The position numbers and the translations under genes were made by a program. This document shows, piece after piece, positions 13,902 through 22,529 of a stretch of DNA of 33,299 nucleotides (positions are counted from its first letter, which is position 1; every line of letters starts with the position of its first letter). This DNA is from Candidatus Sulfopaludibacter sp. SbA3 (GTDB lineage Bacteria; Acidobacteriota; Terriglobia; Bryobacterales; Bryobacteraceae), in the NCBI GenBank assembly GCA_945861625.1, contig CAMAVI010000037.1, forward strand, positions 1 through 33,299, given 5' to 3'. Below the pieces are notes generated by a model. The model saw only the letters and a program-made list of their open reading frames with translations, searched no databases and was not told the DNA's origin.

Positions 13902-13978
13902 TGGTGGGCTCGACAGAACTCGAATCTGTGACCTCCTGCGTGTCAAGCAGGCGCTCTAACCAACTGAGCTACGAGCCC
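13902..13978 (-). tRNA. tRNA-Val (GAC)
   Basis: Read on the minus strand: acceptor GGGCTCG/CGAGCCC, D-arm with AGTTGGTTA loop, anticodon stem CCTGC/GCAGG with loop TTGACAC giving anticodon GAC, five-base variable region, T-arm ACAGA/TCTGT with TTCGAGT loop, discriminator A and an encoded CCA (13902-13904). All stems pair and the length is 77 nt including CCA. The anticodon reads GUC/GUU. Confidence 0.97.
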
Positions 13979-15341: not shown

Positions 15342-18300
15342 TTGCTCAAGCTCAAGCGCGTTGACATCCAAGGTTTCAAGTCGTTTTACGACCGCACGGA
15401 AATGCGGTTCCACGGCTCCGGCGTTGCCGCGATCGTGGGTCCGAACGGGTGCGGCAAGTCCAACCTGAGCGACGCCATCAGTTGGGTCCTGGGTGAGCAG
15501 AGCGCCAAGAGCCTGCGCGGCTCCCGCATGGAAGACGTCATCTTCGCCGGCACGCGCGAGCGTAAGCCCCTGGGTCTAGCGCAAGTCACGCTGACCATGA
15601 CCGATCCCGAAGCCCACCGTGAACACAAGTTGCACGAGGCCGGCGTGTTAAACGGGACGAACGGAAGCAACGGCCACCAGGCAAACGGGAATGGCCACGG
15701 CTCTAATACGCACCCCAGGCCCTCCGACGTCACCATCACGCGCCGCCTGTACCGGTCCGGCGAAAGCGAATATCTCATTGATGGTAAGACGGCGCGCTTG
15801 CGCGACATTCAGGATCTGTTCATGGGCACGGGTCTGGGTCCGGAGAGCTACGCCATCATCGAGCAGGGCCGCATCGGACAGATTCTTTCGAACAAGCCCG
15901 CCGACCGCCGGTCGATCATCGAAGAAGCGGCCGGCATCGGGAGATACAAGAGCCGCAAACGTCTGGCGGAATCGAAACTGGAAAGCGCCAAGCAGAACCT
16001 GGCCCGTGTGTTCGACATCCTGGAAGAAGTCGGCCGGCAGGCCAACTCTCTGAAGCGCCAGGCTTCCAAGGCCAAGCGCTATGAAGAACTGCGCGCGGAA
16101 ATGCTCAACCACCTGCGGCAGGCCGTCGCGGGCCGCTTCCGGTTGCTGGAGAGCGAAGCCGCTAAGCTGGCGCTGGACCTGGGCCAGGCACAGACCAACT
16201 TCCAAATGCTCACGGCCGAAGTGCAGACCAAAGAGCAGGAGTACACGCGCACGCAGGAATCCTGCTATCAGGTGGAAGCGTCGCTGACGGAAGCGCGCGC
16301 CCGCGTGGCCGAGTTGAACCTGGAATCCGAGCGCACCCGCGGCCGCCTGGAATTACAGGCCCGCCAGATCGGTGCGCTGGAAGAGCGCATGGCCGCCGGC
16401 GACAACGAAACCAGGGAAATGGACGAACGGCACCAGCGTGAAGCCGCCGAGTTGGCCGCGCATCAAGAGACCATCGCGGCCATCGAGCGCGATGTCCTCG
16501 CAGCCCGCCAAAAGCTCGACGCGAAAGCCCAGGAGCGCGACGCGCTGCAGGTTCGCTTGCGCGAGCGGGAGTACTCGCTCGAAGCCGCGCGTCAGGCGGT
16601 GCTGCGGCTTATGAATGAGGCTTCGTCGCTGCGCAACCAGCTTGCGCAGGCCGACGAGTATCTGGCCTCCATGGAACGTGACGCGGCGCGCGCCCGCAAG
16701 GAAGAAGAAGGCGCGACGACCGATCTCGCCCAACTGGAGCAGAGCAAAGCCGAACTTTCCGTGCGTTTATCCGCCCGCCAGCTCGAACTCGAATCCCTGA
16801 CCGACCGCCGCCGGCGCGTCGAAGACGACTTAAAGCAACGGCGCGAGCGTATTGTCGAATCGCGCCAGGAACTGAATACCCTCCGCGACGCGCTGTCCAA
16901 GCAGAAAGCGCGCAAGGAATCGCTGGAAGGCATTCTGTCGCATCGCGCCTACACCACGGAATCCGTGAAGCATCTGTTCCAGCAGCACGCCGAGGGTTTC
17001 CGGCCGCTAGGCGTGCTGGCGGATTTCGTCGAAGTCACCAATCCCGAGTGGGAACGTGCCTGCGAAGAATTCCTGCACGAAGAGCTCGAGTATGTTGTCG
17101 TCGACGGCTGGAAGGACGCCGAGCGCGGCGTGGAAGTGCTGCGCGCGGAATCCGACGGGCGCGCGACATTCCTGGTGCACGCCGCCCCCGATACCACCGC
17201 CCACGTGCCGGAGCTTTCCCTGGAGCCTTCCGTTACCGGCAAGCTGCGCGATGCGTTGCGGCTGACCAATGGATTTGCCGCCGCGCCGCAAGGGTTCCTG
17301 CCGCGTCTGGCGCGCTGCTTCCTGGTCAACGACCGCGACGCCGCCGCGCGTCTGGCCGAATCGCATCCCGATTGCTATTTCCTGCTGCCCGATGGCGCGA
17401 GCTACCATGGCCGCACCGTAACCGGAGGCAAGAAATCTTCGGGCGGTCCCTTGGCGCTCAAGCGCGAACTGCGCGAATTGACGGCGCAGGTGGATATCCG
17501 CAACCGCGCGGCCGATGAACGAACCGCCGCGTTGGAGCAACTGGAGCGCGAGGCGGCGCTTCTGACCGAGGAATTGGAGCAAGTGCGCGCCCTGCAACAG
17601 GCGCGGGAAAAAGACGCTCTAGCGATGGACCACGAGCAGCGCAAACTCGCCGAGGAATACGCTCGCGCGGGTTCGCGTCTCTCCGCCGCCCGCCTGGAAC
17701 TGGAACGCCTCGCCCGGCAGGATCAGCAGGCCCGCGCGCAACGCGAAGCCAATCAGGCGTTGGTCGCCGATAAAGAACAAGCCCGCTTCGAGCAAGAAAA
17801 ACTGGTGGAAGTCGCGCGCGGCGAATTCGACGGCTTGCAGGCGCAGGTCCACGCGATCGGCGAGACTTACTCCGTGCTGCGCGCCGAGCTGGCGGGCCTC
17901 GAAGAACGAGCCCGCTCGGAAAAAACGGCGGCGAGCCGCTTGGAAGCCCAGCTTCAGCAACTCACAGCCCGCCGGGAACAGCTCGCCCGTGAGATGGAGC
18001 GCATGGGCGTGGAGCGCGCCCGCTTGCTCGCCGATAACATCGAACTCGATCAGCGCGCCCAGCAGCTTCAGGAACACACGGCGGAAGCCACGGGACGGGT
18101 CGAGTTGCTCACCGCGCAGGAGACCGGCGGCCGCGAAGCCCTGGCCGCGCTCGATGAAGCGCTGAAGACCTTGCGCGTGGACGCGCAGGCGGCGCAGGAG
18201 CAGCGTTCGCAGATCGAAGTGGAACTCGTGCGCAAGCAAGCCGAGCTCAAGTATCTCGACGAGACCAGCCACAAGGAGCTCAGTGCCGCGGCGAGCGAGA

Positions 18301-19055
18301 TCGCGGCCCTGCTGGAGAGCCAAGCGGCCGAGAATCCAACGCAGGACAGCGGGCCCGGAGTGGAAGACTCCGAGCAGCGCTACCAGGAAGTGCGCGCGCG
18401 CATTGAGGCGCTGGGGCCGGTGAATCCGCAAGCCCTCGAAGAGTATCAGGAAGCGCAGCAGCGTTACGAATTCCTGAATACGCAAAGGCAGGACTTGCTC
18501 GACTCGATTCGTGACACCGAGAAAGCCATTCAGGAACTCGACACAGAATCCCGCAAGCGCTTCAAGGAAGCCTTTGAGAACATCAACACGAACTTCAAGG
18601 AGATGTTCCAAACCTTGTTCGGCGGCGGCGTGGGTGAAATGCGCCTGACCGACGAAAGCAACCTCGCCGAAAGCGGCATCGATATCATGGCGTCGCCTCC
18701 GGGCAAGCGCCTGCAGCATATCGCGCTGCTATCTGGAGGCGAGAAGTCGCTCACCGCGATGGCGCTGCTGATGGCCATCTTCCGTTACACGCCGAGCCCG
18801 TTCTGTATTCTGGACGAAGTGGACGCGCCTCTCGATGAGTCCAATATTCAACGGCTCACGCGTTTGATCAAGGAGATGTCGCACGACACGCAGTTCATCG
18901 TGATCACGCACGCCAAGCGCACGATGGAAGCGGCGCAATCGCTCTACGGCGTGACCATGCAGGAACCCGGCGTCTCGAAACTGGTGAGCGTGAAATTCGA
19001 TCCGCTGCCCGCCGCCGCGCCGCCTGCGATGGCCACGGCGATGGCCACGGTCTAG
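15342..19055 (+). CDS. smc: chromosome partition protein SMC
   Basis: 1237 residues. The start is TTG at 15342, fixed by GGAGGG (15329-15334) at 7-bp spacing and by the canonical N-terminus 'LKRVDIQGFKSFYDRT'. Walker A is GPNGCGKS (33-40). Long coiled coils span about 170-510 and 690-1030, with a hinge at about 530-690 ('YTTESVKHLFQQH' onward). The ABC signature LSGGEKS is near residue 1130 and Walker B 'FCILDEVDAPLDE' near 1153. It forms the bacterial condensin with ScpA/ScpB; those genes are not in the window. Oddities: an Asn/Gly/His-rich insert at about residues 101-127 in the head domain before the conserved 'ITRRLYRSGESEYLIDGK', and a repeated AMATAMAT tail from a 12-bp duplication. Its stop overlaps the convergent gene. 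Confidence 0.97.
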   Translation: MLKLKRVDIQGFKSFYDRTEMRFHGSGVAAIVGPNGCGKSNLSDAISWVLGEQSAKSLRGSRMEDVIFAGTRERKPLGLAQVTLTMTDPEAHREHKLHEAGVLNGTNGSNGHQANGNGHGSNTHPRPSDVTITRRLYRSGESEYLIDGKTARLRDIQDLFMGTGLGPESYAIIEQGRIGQILSNKPADRRSIIEEAAGIGRYKSRKRLAESKLESAKQNLARVFDILEEVGRQANSLKRQASKAKRYEELRAEMLNHLRQAVAGRFRLLESEAAKLALDLGQAQTNFQMLTAEVQTKEQEYTRTQESCYQVEASLTEARARVAELNLESERTRGRLELQARQIGALEERMAAGDNETREMDERHQREAAELAAHQETIAAIERDVLAARQKLDAKAQERDALQVRLREREYSLEAARQAVLRLMNEASSLRNQLAQADEYLASMERDAARARKEEEGATTDLAQLEQSKAELSVRLSARQLELESLTDRRRRVEDDLKQRRERIVESRQELNTLRDALSKQKARKESLEGILSHRAYTTESVKHLFQQHAEGFRPLGVLADFVEVTNPEWERACEEFLHEELEYVVVDGWKDAERGVEVLRAESDGRATFLVHAAPDTTAHVPELSLEPSVTGKLRDALRLTNGFAAAPQGFLPRLARCFLVNDRDAAARLAESHPDCYFLLPDGASYHGRTVTGGKKSSGGPLALKRELRELTAQVDIRNRAADERTAALEQLEREAALLTEELEQVRALQQAREKDALAMDHEQRKLAEEYARAGSRLSAARLELERLARQDQQARAQREANQALVADKEQARFEQEKLVEVARGEFDGLQAQVHAIGETYSVLRAELAGLEERARSEKTAASRLEAQLQQLTARREQLAREMERMGVERARLLADNIELDQRAQQLQEHTAEATGRVELLTAQETGGREALAALDEALKTLRVDAQAAQEQRSQIEVELVRKQAELKYLDETSHKELSAAASEIAALLESQAAENPTQDSGPGVEDSEQRYQEVRARIEALGPVNPQALEEYQEAQQRYEFLNTQRQDLLDSIRDTEKAIQELDTESRKRFKEAFENINTNFKEMFQTLFGGGVGEMRLTDESNLAESGIDIMASPPGKRLQHIALLSGGEKSLTAMALLMAIFRYTPSPFCILDEVDAPLDESNIQRLTRLIKEMSHDTQFIVITHAKRTMEAAQSLYGVTMQEPGVSKLVSVKFDPLPAAAPPAMATAMATV
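19026..19049 (+). repeat. 12-bp tandem repeat in the smc 3' end
   Basis: GCGATGGCCACG occurs twice in a row (19026-19037 and 19038-19049), encoding AMATAMAT. In frame, it extends the tail of SMC beyond the conserved head domain. Confidence 0.8.
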
Positions 19056-19858
19056 TGCGTTAAGTCGTAAACCCAGTAATTCACCGCGATCCGGTAGGCA
19101 AGGCCCGCGAAGCGTTCGTCGTAGCGCGGGTCGTCGGACCATTCCCAGGCGTCGCCCAAGTCCATGTTGTGGCAGATGGCGACCATGAGGCGGCCCTTGT
19201 CGTCATAAATGCCGCGCCAATTCGCCTGGTAGCCGTCGCGCTGGTAGGTGCGGCCGGTGTACAAATACTGCGCGCCGGGCACTTGAAAGCGCGACTCCAG
19301 ATCGTAAATCGCATGGAAACTCGGGTCGTTGTTGTCGATGTCGACGATCTCCCGGTCCGGGAATACCTTACTGATGCCGGCAACGAAGTTTTCCCACTCC
19401 TGCGAGCCGTGGAAGTCGTCCACCATCAGGAATCCGCCACGCAGCAGGTAGTCGCGCAACTGGCGGGCCTGCCCGTCCGGCAAACGCCAGTAGCCGACTT
19501 CAACAGCATACATCCCCGGCCAGTTGAAGGCGTCGTCGGTGTCATCCAGATCCACCACCTGTTCGACGGACCGCGTATCGATGCGGGTCAGGCGGCGGAT
19601 GCCTTGCAGCAGATGGCGGTCCGAGCGTGGATAGTCGGTGGTCCAGTTGTAGTCTCCGCCGCGGTAACCCATCGTGAACAGTCCGGGGACGCGCAGGCGG
19701 GCGCGCGTCCATTCCGCGGGACGGTTCCAATCCGGCGGCAGCGGAAAGTTACGATACTCGCGCCCCGGATATTCGCGGAACGGGCGTTGAGCGTAAAGGA
19801 CACCAAGAGCGCCGGCGGAAACAACGATCAGCGCAATGGCAATCGCGCGGCGAAGCAC
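19052..19858 (-). CDS. exported DUF4159 domain protein
   Basis: 268 residues. GTG start at 19858 directly abuts the TAG of the preceding 616-aa gene, so translation is probably coupled. An N-terminal hydrophobic segment (MLRRAIAIALIVVSAGALGVLYAQ) indicates export or anchoring. DUF4159 hallmarks are visible: 'MYAVEVGYWRLPD...QLRDYLLRGGFLMVDDFHG', 'WENFVAGISKVFPDREIVDI', 'FHAIYDLE' and a C-terminal 'DERFAGLAYRIAVNYWVYDLTH'. DUF4159 has a glutamine-amidotransferase-like fold without known activity and in other phyla often sits with MoxR ATPases and Bat-type proteins, which agrees with the MoxR gene here. Its stop and that of smc share the palindrome CTAG (19052-19055). Confidence 0.88.
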   Translation of the reverse strand: MLRRAIAIALIVVSAGALGVLYAQRPFREYPGREYRNFPLPPDWNRPAEWTRARLRVPGLFTMGYRGGDYNWTTDYPRSDRHLLQGIRRLTRIDTRSVEQVVDLDDTDDAFNWPGMYAVEVGYWRLPDGQARQLRDYLLRGGFLMVDDFHGSQEWENFVAGISKVFPDREIVDIDNNDPSFHAIYDLESRFQVPGAQYLYTGRTYQRDGYQANWRGIYDDKGRLMVAICHNMDLGDAWEWSDDPRYDERFAGLAYRIAVNYWVYDLTH

Positions 19859-21709
19859 CTACCAAATATACTCCTTCGCCTCCGCGCGCCGGGCGTAACT
19901 GTCCAGCACGTGCACCACGCGCAGCTTCTTGACCTTGGCAGGCGATAGCTGACCGATCGGGACATACAGAATCTTGCGGTTCAGATGCGCGGCAATGGAA
20001 CGGAAAATCGAACGAGGCGGCTTGGCAGCGACGTACACCACGAAACGCTCAACCGAGTAATCCAGCGCGGCCATGAGCAGGCGCTCCGGCTTGGATTCGG
20101 CGAATTCGTAGTCGGGATCCGACCACACGTCGTACATGCGCCGCGGAGGCAGCGTCATCAGCAGGCCCCCGTATTCGGCACGACCGATGCCCGGCCCCAC
20201 GATGTTGTCGAACGGATGCGTTGAGTAATACGCCATGTCCGACTCGTTCTGGTGTTCACCCAGCCACGTTGTCAGGTACGTGTAGCGGTCGTCGCGGTCT
20301 TCATCGAAGATGATGACGACGGCACCCACTTCCCCGGCCAGCCGGTCCGCCTTGCGCACGAAAATTTTGCGCCGGTGCCAGTTGCGGATGGTCTCGCGAA
20401 TGTCGATGCCATCCAAGATCGAAGTGGTGAAGGGCTCCACCCGCACGCGCTCATCGGAGAGCAGCGCCTTGGCTTTCTGCTTGACGAAGCGCCCGTATTC
20501 TTCGATCACCAGGTCTTCCGGCGGATACGAACAAATCGCTTCGCCGGTGGTCTGCCGCGCCCACTCTCCCGGAGCTTTTTCCTTCTTGCGCGGCTTCAGG
20601 CCCGTGGGCATCAGACGCTGTTTCGCGCGCGGCAGCCGCCGCCGGATGCGCAAGCGCTTGGTGTTGATCCAGATTTCGCCGGCACTCAGGCGGACGGTAT
20701 CCAGATCCGACTTTTCCTGCTGCGCCAGATACCGGTTGGCCATCTGCCACACTTCCCAGCCGAAGTTGTCGTCCACAACGGAGCGCGCGGCAACGGCCAG
20801 ATCGTAAACGCTGGCGACCAGCTCGCCACTGATGTGCGCGAGATTTCGCGTGTAGCGCGCGATCATGCGCCGCTGCCAGTGCGCCATCTTTTCACCCGTC
20901 GACTGCGTGTACTTGCCTTCCGCCTCGCGCATCAGTTCCAACTGGACGCGGGGCTTGTCAAGCACTTTATCGTCGGCGGACCCGAAGCTCATGCCGAGCC
21001 GGAAGAATTCGTAGCGCTCCTGCAGATACGGATACTCGACGGTGATCTCCGAAAGGCACTCGGGGTGCGGATTGACCAGCTCCGGCTCATAGCGCTTTCC
21101 GCCCTCCGGCGCGGACTGTGGAGCCTCCATTGCGTCCAGCAGCGGATCCAGCATATTGAGCGCCACCACGGCCACCACGCTCGCTCCCGGATCGGCGCCC
21201 TGCAGCTTCCAGGCCATGGCGGAAGCATGGGCGGTCACTTCCTCGGTGCGCATCTGCGGGTAGACGCGGTAAGCCTCGATGTACGGCTCAGGACCGATCC
21301 GACGGACCGCGTAGGTGTCCGGGTACGTATCCGGCAAGTGCGGGCGATCGGCCGAATCCGGTTCCAGGAAAATCACCTGCGCCCCGATTTCCGCCGCGGT
21401 CCGCAGCGCTTCCACAAAGGGATCGCAAGGCTCCACGGGAACGTAGATCGCCCGTTCATCGGCGTCTTTGCCGCCGGCAGCCGCTGCTTCGTGATACAGA
21501 ATGACTGTGATTTCCGGAAGCCGCGCGAGCGCCCGCTGGTAGGCCCGTTCAAGAAAACCGGGAAGTTCCACGGCAACCACCCGCGGCCGCGACGCAAGAA
21601 GAAGCTTGCGCAGTTCCAGCGCGAACTCCAGCTTGCCCGGCACTACCGGGAAGTAGTGGATATGACCGCGCCGCAAGCCGCCGGATTTCAGTTCAGCTTC
21701 GAGCGACAT
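19859..21709 (-). CDS. unrecognised 616-aa protein between MoxR and DUF4159 (possible remote DUF5682/ChaN-like N-terminus)
   Basis: The ATG at 21709 is chosen because it follows GAAGAGG at 9-bp spacing; the frame also has a TTG 7 codons earlier. No signal peptide or membrane segment, so cytoplasmic. Residues about 15-125 look like an alpha/beta sheet: 'HIHYFPVVPGKLEFALEL', 'RPRVVAVELPG', 'ITVILYHEA', 'AIYVPVEPCDPFVEALRTA', 'GAQVIFLEPDS'. That order of strands resembles DUF5682/TraB-ChaN-type proteins, which also sit beside MoxR ATPases, but similarity is faint and I treat it as a hypothesis. The middle (about 240-330) is helical; about 351-385 is strongly basic ('KRLRIRRRLPRAKQRL'); about 460-610 is a second alpha/beta region ('VGAVVIIFDEDRDDRYTYL'). 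It overlaps the MoxR gene by 17 bp. Confidence 0.75.
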   Translation of the reverse strand: MSLEAELKSGGLRRGHIHYFPVVPGKLEFALELRKLLLASRPRVVAVELPGFLERAYQRALARLPEITVILYHEAAAAGGKDADERAIYVPVEPCDPFVEALRTAAEIGAQVIFLEPDSADRPHLPDTYPDTYAVRRIGPEPYIEAYRVYPQMRTEEVTAHASAMAWKLQGADPGASVVAVVALNMLDPLLDAMEAPQSAPEGGKRYEPELVNPHPECLSEITVEYPYLQERYEFFRLGMSFGSADDKVLDKPRVQLELMREAEGKYTQSTGEKMAHWQRRMIARYTRNLAHISGELVASVYDLAVAARSVVDDNFGWEVWQMANRYLAQQEKSDLDTVRLSAGEIWINTKRLRIRRRLPRAKQRLMPTGLKPRKKEKAPGEWARQTTGEAICSYPPEDLVIEEYGRFVKQKAKALLSDERVRVEPFTTSILDGIDIRETIRNWHRRKIFVRKADRLAGEVGAVVIIFDEDRDDRYTYLTTWLGEHQNESDMAYYSTHPFDNIVGPGIGRAEYGGLLMTLPPRRMYDVWSDPDYEFAESKPERLLMAALDYSVERFVVYVAAKPPRSIFRSIAAHLNRKILYVPIGQLSPAKVKKLRVVHVLDSYARRAEAKEYIW

Positions 21710-22529
21710 AGCGCAGGGCCTCTTCGCCAAGCGTTTGTGTAATCGCGGTCCGTAGAATCTCCTGGCGGTTGGCGGCGAACCCGCGCTCCGCGTAGCTCTG
21801 TTCCAGCTTCATGGTGAACCGCGCGATATTGATGCCGTCGCGCGCGGTGTAGCGTTCGTCGGCCGCGTGCGCCTGCTGCAGGAAATCGGTCACGTAATTG
21901 AGAATGTGCTCGTCGCCGAAGGGCAGATTCTCGCGTAGAATCGCGAACTCTTCGTGGCGCTCCGGAAAATCGATCAGGATCATCGGCTGCAGCCGCGAAT
22001 GGATGTACTCGGGCAGATCGAACGTGCTGGCGTCATCGTTCATGGTGGCAACGACGCGGAACAGCGGATGCGCCTTGATCTTGATGCCGGCCACGATGGA
22101 CTCCACGTATCTGCGGTTGTCCAGCAGGGGAGCCAGACTGGCCCAGCTTTTTTCGCTCATGCGGTTGCCCTCATCCAGGATGACGATTCCCCCGCGCAAC
22201 ATGGCGGTCACCAGAGGCGACGCCACGTAGCGCAGGCGCGCCTCACCCTCAATCACCGGCGTGACGAGAAGGTCTTCGGGCCGTGTATCGACCGTTGCCT
22301 GCATGATATAGACCTCACGGTCCAGACGCTTCGCCGCCGCATAGGCTAGCGTGGTCTTGCCCACGCCCGGCTTGCCCAGCAGCCGCGGGTTCATGGGCAC
22401 GTCCCGCGAGTCGATCACCAGCCAGGCGGCCAGCAACTGCCGCATAACTTCTTCCTGCCCCACCCAGGTGACGGACAACTCGTCCGGGTGCGCCAAGTGC
22501 AGGGCCACGCCATCGATTTCAACAACCAT
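21693..22529 (-). CDS. MoxR-type AAA+ ATPase
   Basis: 278 residues, a single AAA+ module. Walker A GKPGVGKTT (52-60), Walker B IVILDEGNRM with D119/E120, sensor 1 Asn N164 in 'VVATMNDD', and an arginine-finger candidate R179 in 'YIHSRLQPMI'. The 'TRPEDLLVTPVIEGEARLRYVASPLVTAM' stretch is the MoxR helix-2 insert region. MoxR ATPases act as chaperones that insert cofactors or remodel partner proteins, usually VWA-domain proteins; no VWA gene is in this window. The first gene of a three-gene operon (MoxR, 616-aa protein, DUF4159), with overlaps of 17 bp and 0 bp. The ATG at 22529 has only a weak GAG-type ribosome binding site. Confidence 0.9.
   Translation of the reverse strand: MVVEIDGVALHLAHPDELSVTWVGQEEVMRQLLAAWLVIDSRDVPMNPRLLGKPGVGKTTLAYAAAKRLDREVYIMQATVDTRPEDLLVTPVIEGEARLRYVASPLVTAMLRGGIVILDEGNRMSEKSWASLAPLLDNRRYVESIVAGIKIKAHPLFRVVATMNDDASTFDLPEYIHSRLQPMILIDFPERHEEFAILRENLPFGDEHILNYVTDFLQQAHAADERYTARDGINIARFTMKLEQSYAERGFAANRQEILRTAITQTLGEEALRYVARS

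Follow-up and report, generated by a model that had tools for sequence, protein, structure and literature searches.

A VWA-less MoxR ATPase and a 616-aa partner protein inherited together in Acidobacteriota

Studied MoxR ATPases mostly work with VWA partners. Here, we analyse a pair of genes for a MoxR ATPase and a 616-amino-acid (aa) partner protein in a 33,299-nucleotide stretch of DNA from Candidatus Sulfopaludibacter sp. SbA3 (Acidobacteriota, Bryobacteraceae; contig CAMAVI010000037.1; this whole stretch is referred to as the window), and we rate the pair as a variant of MoxR–partner systems, i.e. of a known kind. According to passages of PMC9976466, few AAA+ proteins have been studied as little as the MoxR ATPases, which assemble into rings with a presumed role in client remodelling; in NorD, the adaptor of NorQ, the N-terminal domain is followed by a disordered stretch and then by a VWA domain, a finger of which is modelled in the NorQ pore. 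Like NorQ and NorD as presented there, the window pair combines a MoxR ATPase, which from its known relatives would form an ATP-driven ring, with one dedicated partner made of an N-terminal part, a flexible linker and a C-terminal domain; unlike NorD, the window partner has neither a VWA match nor a metal-ion-dependent adhesion site (MIDAS) motif (DxSxS/T).

The Escherichia coli genes yehL-yehM-yehP-yehQ encode a MoxR, a DUF5682, a VWA and a SWIM protein. As in yeh, the MoxR gene of the window is followed by a gene for a protein with the same TraB/DUF5682-type plus helical region (YehM, which is annotated as uncharacterised in E. coli); unlike in yeh, no VWA or SWIM gene is seen with the window pair, the C-terminal domain of the partner is unmatched in DUF5682, and the MoxR lies outside the YehL clade in a tree that carries long-branch warnings. 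The MoxR-vWA-VMAP ternary systems covered in part of PMC7159879 are likewise MoxR-centred gene cassettes; unlike in these, no vWA, VMAP or effector is seen at the window pair, and TraB, Tiki, YehM, YehL and EreA do not occur in the main text of that source. In a literature search with most subscription papers outside its scope, DUF5682 was not mentioned, MoxR, TraB and vWA never appeared together, and MoxR operons in Acidobacteria were not found; YehL and YehM were named in two papers, one time each.

MoxR and the 616-aa partner are inherited together

A scan of a genome collection with the partner matched 160 stretches, 151 of which encode relatives; we kept the best 80 of these 151 and added 23 others, giving 103 loci in which two genomes occur twice (L034/L122 and L036/L121). 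The best 80 relatives are labelled as Acidobacteriota groups (Bryobacterales, Bryobacteraceae, Terriglobia and similar) except L034 and L063; these are labelled Bordetella parapertussis and Acidimicrobiia, and as their loci resemble those of the Acidobacteriota relatives, they are likely mislabelled metagenome-assembled genomes. The same MoxR is encoded on the partner's strand in 98 of the 103 loci, including one with the MoxR gene 2.2 kb off (L113). Among the five loci without it, the stretch of L069 begins within the partner gene, L151 (genome G311) lies at a contig end, L116 (G063) and L117 (G267) have the same MoxR elsewhere in the genome, and L107 fits the partner's place in G502, whose MoxR is on another contig. 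In 43 of these 98 same-strand loci, a start codon is present exactly 17 bp inside the MoxR gene, so that the overlap of the window is possible there, and close coupling of MoxR and partner is, therefore, a recurrent feature. The suggestion of the initial annotation that this MoxR has a dedicated partner other than a VWA protein thus holds across many genomes.

For the phylum, we used 396 Acidobacteriota genomes (three draws with the same handles, taken as one set). Profile A1 detected a full-length partner in 22 of these and gave five further matches, i.e. a divergent partner (G274) and four proteins matching at the N-terminus only, of which L156 is a DUF5682 protein and L158 a TraB protein by Pfam, while L155 and L157 are TraB-like by look. 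Profile A9, for which rows from G064 and G274 were added, detected the partner in 24/396 genomes. The MoxR clade, at E ≤ 1e-25, is found in 23/396 genomes, every one within the 24 partner carriers. In the sole partner-only genome of this set, G311 (91% complete), the contig with the partner is 4566 bp long and leaves only 306 bp upstream of the partner gene, and no such MoxR was found elsewhere in the genome.

In the window's family, the partner is present in 139 of 150 genomes (101/109 if only good-quality genomes are counted); 133 of the carriers gave a single match, and in the other six the gene is split into two pieces. MoxR was sought in 129 of the 150 and is present in 118: 117 genomes have both genes, eight have neither (G411, G426, G457, G458, G464, G478, G500 and G503), three have the partner only (G443, G485 and G489) and one, G462, has just a fragment of MoxR. 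Each of these four discordant genomes has its detected gene at a contig end. G526 and G542, which are not among the 129, have neither the partner nor the MoxR. Both genes are also kept where they are not side by side, as in G063, G267, G238 (2.2 kb apart), G402, G473, G507, G529, G474, G488, G502 and G403, the last with both genes on one 6.7-Mb contig at a distance of 2.8 Mb. We conclude that MoxR and the 616-aa partner are inherited together. A co-inherited VWA-less MoxR pair in one bacterial family provides a defined two-protein system in which to probe what the partner contributes. G219 carries two copies of the pair (L111/L112).

Walker A, Walker B, sensor 1 and a putative Arg finger/sensor 2, names that we presume to apply to these motifs, are conserved in the MoxR across 108 aligned rows. 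In a tree of 37 ATPases, which came with long-branch warnings, the pair MoxRs form one clade (support 99/98) that includes the divergent proteins of G274 and G064, and the YehL/DUF5682-associated ATPases form a separate clade (100/100); the pair clade is also apart from a DUF58-linked MoxR, two paralogues of the window's genus and RavA. MoxRs with only 36–41% identity (two each in G274 and G064) still have a downstream partner with the same N-terminus. In G274, both divergent pairs are then followed by a TPR-repeat gene (L197 4776-5741; L198 6977-7960), a possible extra component in that lineage. Other MoxRs of the source genome found with the pair MoxR as query are 30–31% identical, and the solved relatives of the ATPase include NorQ and CbbQ, which come after midasin.

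Beyond Acidobacteriota, the single occurrence seen is on plasmid pS13 of Neochlamydia sp. S13 (Chlamydiota; L161 7135-9848), where the two annotations read AAA family ATPase and hypothetical protein; this plasmid copy, with MoxR beside the partner, shows that the pair can move. Two IMG/VR viral contigs also carry the partner, L179 (368-4583) with MoxR and then an integrase gene (PHROG 7.8e-43), and L180 (89-3730) with a tail-protein gene downstream (1.5e-13). A phage origin was considered and rejected, as there was no match among 50,697 phage records and both contigs look like provirus edges; the partner genes on them probably belong to host DNA that flanks proviruses. One relative from the same class has a MoxR gene with a true DUF5682 gene (L156 407-3294; PF18934, 3.2e-174), and both kinds of system, therefore, exist in the phylum.

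Domains of the partner

The initial annotation had found no recognisable motif in the partner, and this stands for the direct searches, in which the window protein has no match in Pfam, NCBIfam, PADLOC or PHROGs, but not for profile comparison, in which the N-terminal half matches DUF5682 and TraB. Specifically, partner profile A2 matched DUF5682 profile A3 (seven proteins with E. coli YehM as the first row) with an hhalign probability of 98.2 and E of 3.5e-14 over residues 1-347, substantiating the faint likeness to DUF5682 that had been proposed for the N-terminus. The same profile matched TraB profile A4 (TraB/PrgY/gumN, PF01963) with a probability of 97.1 and E of 7.6e-11 over residues 13-199, and the DUF5682 and TraB profiles matched each other with a probability of 93.8, thereby linking DUF5682, and E. 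coli YehM, to the TraB superfamily. By these profile comparisons, with matches to both families, we assign the N-terminal domain to the TraB/DUF5682 type. Single sequences carry less of this signal: among 17 partners scanned, 3 match DUF5682 (best 3.4e-6) and 2 match TraB (best 0.23), the window protein has no match to the curated DUF5682 model (PF18934), and a relative in G059 exceeds the PF18934 cut-off only once neighbours in the frame are added.

An AlphaFold2 (AF2) model of the whole partner has a mean predicted local distance difference test (pLDDT) score of 84.1 and a predicted template modelling (pTM) score of 0.60, with mean pLDDT of 49–67 over residues 361-400. The top Foldseek match of the model is 7w5z_E, a TraB-family protein of Tetrahymena complex IV (treated in part of PMC10060162), with a probability of 0.94 but E of 0.032 and a template modelling (TM) score of 0.17, and most other listed matches look unrelated. 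Taken alone, the modelled structure would be weak evidence for a TraB fold. Between the helical part and the C-terminal domain, residues 347-391 contain 15 Lys/Arg against 3 Asp/Glu, in agreement with the very basic linker noted at the outset.

TraB and DUF5682 proteins have His, Glu and His at matching places, residues that we take to be catalytic; the window partner has Pro24, Glu48 and Met186 there. To compare lineages, we divided 103 aligned partners into 82 inside and 21 outside the window's family group, going by record label and family of the genome and, in the case of the viral contig L179, by likeness. Outside the group, His24 and His186 are present in 21/21 partners; inside it, His is found at position 24 in 1/82 and at position 186 in 0/82. 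Glu48 is present in all 87 rows of alignment A1; of the 16 later additions, L179 and L214 have lost it. Thus, unlike TraB/PrgY/gumN proteins, partners of the window's family group are missing the two signature His residues, and the domain is fused to helical and C-terminal domains. Tiki proteins of the TraB superfamily are metalloproteases, as stated in a portion of PMC12329661. We suggest from the residue pattern that lineages with both His residues probably have an enzyme or metal site in their TraB-like domain, and that in the window's family group this site has been lost and the domain is probably structural.

The C-terminal domain is the best conserved part of the partner. Over the 21 members outside the family group, its mean identity to the window protein is 52.6% versus 30.6% for the TraB-like domain, and 47/225 of its columns are at least 98% identical versus 9/216. 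A set of 21 C-terminal residues is identical in 102/103 partners; because these were picked from invariant columns of A1 (87 rows), identity there is certain and the 16 added rows are the test, of which 15 keep all 21. The invariant residues include Cys393, Asp433, Asp436, Glu439, Glu485, Glu489, Asp491 and His600. The AF2 model of this domain is fair (pLDDT 84.9, pTM 0.78). It had no match to PDB folds at E ≤ 0.001 (best 0.53), and profile searches of the PDB reached 0.44 with the whole partner and 0.74 with the C-terminal part. The domain is, therefore, a strongly conserved one without a recognised fold and a target for structure determination.

The C-terminal domain was rejected as a piece of DUF5682, for which it reached a probability of 0.1 (profile A8 against A3). 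As a hidden VWA domain it was not supported, with an hhalign probability of 13 against YehP and no MIDAS motif in the window partner. In the family scans of the partner, weak matches of single relatives to precorrin methyltransferase (0.00083), Cas11 (0.0069), a PHROG (0.023), NrfE (0.029) and PhoR (0.053) were taken as chance-level. The DxSxS motif occurs in 3/87 partner relatives, and a MIDAS-like motif occurs in other genes of 4/95 loci, of which L044 and L112 are convincing by look (crude gene calls). At the window itself, Pfam found no VWA gene among the seven neighbouring proteins, in line with the absence of VWA from the initial annotation of this locus.

Possible roles of the pair

The data show that MoxR and partner are paired, that the N-terminal half has homologues, that the His residues are lost in the window's family group and that the C-terminal domain is conserved. 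Our working hypothesis, to which we give a probability of roughly 0.5, is that the two genes encode a VWA-less MoxR machine. The MoxR would form an ATP-driven, presumably hexameric ring, as MoxR ATPases do, and the partner would be its dedicated adaptor, in which a flexible basic linker joins the TraB/DUF5682-type and helical domains to the alpha/beta domain at the C-terminus. Because the order of the parts is like that in NorD, the C-terminal domain would take the place of VWA. It would dock on or in the ring and carry a client-facing or catalytic site, and its strong conservation is proposed to follow from this. The presence once per genome in most family genomes suggests housekeeping over defence, e.g. 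the maturation of a protein or cofactor. More speculatively, and in our view doubtfully, the pair might represent a MoxR machine of a new class, with an undescribed C-terminal fold that is covalently joined to a TraB/DUF5682-type domain decayed in one family and would replace VWA in an undiscovered housekeeping maturation or hydrolysis step of Acidobacteriota.

Several points weigh against the adaptor reading. No VWA relationship of the C-terminal domain is detectable in the comparison with YehP, so that its VWA-like role is argued from layout alone; the Foldseek support for a TraB fold in the partner is weak; and the structure models cover single chains only. The pair is patchy outside the family (21/24 carriers among 396), and gains and losses are shared by descent within genera, so the genome counts are not independent trials. 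Finally, the partner could be a client rather than an adaptor. Its C-terminal domain would then be an enzyme, with the active site formed by some of the invariant residues and opened or loaded with metal by MoxR, in the way that cNOR depends on NorQD. We regard this as a possibility that ranks close behind the adaptor reading: one fixed partner per MoxR, their joint loss, the enzyme-like invariant residues and the lack of a third gene group in more than 15/95 loci all suit a client, whereas NorQ serves its client via the separate adaptor NorD (in passages of PMC9976466) and no known enzyme fold was found for the C-terminal domain. We consider it unlikely that the pair serves in biological conflict, i.e. 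as an anti-phage system built on MoxR. Such MoxR-based systems are covered in part of PMC7159879, and the Neochlamydia plasmid copy, the two IMG/VR contigs with the partner near phage-type genes and the patchiness outside the family would be in keeping with one, but presence in 139/150 family genomes, with one match in 133 and a split gene in six, would not. Moreover, PADLOC was unconvincing (no match for the window protein and one of 17 relatives at 0.0069), no effector was seen, and the partner had no match in the 50,697 phage records.

The initial annotation had instead joined MoxR, the partner and the exported DUF4159 protein in a signalling or assembly unit of three genes and named the same order in many genomes as what would support it. 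The MoxR–partner part of this order is widely conserved, but DUF4159 is not. Of the loci searched by tblastn with the window copy, 79 have 900 bp or more downstream of the partner; DUF4159 follows the partner in two of them, the close relatives L028 and L038, with the window as the third case, and was not found in the other 77. Relatives with partners 78–79% identical (L030 and L032) have an SMC gene directly after the partner and are without DUF4159. The source genome has ten DUF4159 genes, i.e. nine besides that of the window. In favour of joint action, L028 and L038 share the window's 0-bp junction between partner and DUF4159, and at another locus of the same genome (L206) DUF4159 heads a same-strand row with a GATase1-like/VWA-type protein, an AAA_3 MoxR and a DUF58 protein, and thus again accompanies a MoxR. 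On balance, we consider a joint function of the exported DUF4159 protein with the pair very improbable; the conserved unit is MoxR plus the 616-aa partner, and DUF4159 is a local neighbour.

Gene layout and neighbourhood

The three genes at the window locus, their coordinates and lengths, the 17-bp overlap and the direct TAG/GTG junction had been given exactly by the initial annotation (Table 1). At the junction, the TAG of the partner ends at 19859 and the GTG of DUF4159 starts at 19858, leaving 0 bp between them. Pfam matched the MoxR to AAA_5 (1e-20) and AAA_3 (1.8e-10) and the third protein to DUF4159 (1.4e-37).

Table 1 Coordinates of the genes and of the partner domains in the window
Feature	Position	Strand	Remark
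MoxR-type AAA+ ATPase, 278 aa, ATG start	21693..22529	-	AAA_5 match; separate MoxR clade
Overlap of 17 bp, MoxR end/partner start	21693..21709	-	
616-aa partner protein, ATG start	19859..21709	-	co-inherited with MoxR
TraB/DUF5682-type alpha/beta domain (predicted), partner residues 12-225	21035..21676	-	hhalign, Foldseek, residue counts
Helical domain, partner residues 226-346	20672..21034	-	also aligned to DUF5682; boundaries set by us
Basic linker, partner residues 347-391	20537..20671	-	45 residues
C-terminal alpha/beta domain, partner residues 392-616	19862..20536	-	best conserved part; relative none recognised
DUF4159 protein, 268 aa, GTG start	19052..19858	-	Pfam; N-terminus signal-peptide-like by look; local third gene

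Neighbours vary on both sides of the pair, and besides the pair itself no gene group occurs in more than 15/95 loci. The commonest other groups, in 15/95 and 11/95 loci, are large families by look and vary in position. Genes that by look are cobA/hemD-, hemC- and hemA-like occur in 6, 5 and 6 loci and SMC genes in 5, and none of these was taken as a functional link. In the window, an SMC gene on the plus strand (15342-19055; SMC_N 6.7e-67) and the DUF4159 gene on the minus strand converge with a 4-bp overlap (19052-19055), and a tRNA-Val (gac) gene lies at 13902-13978 on the minus strand.

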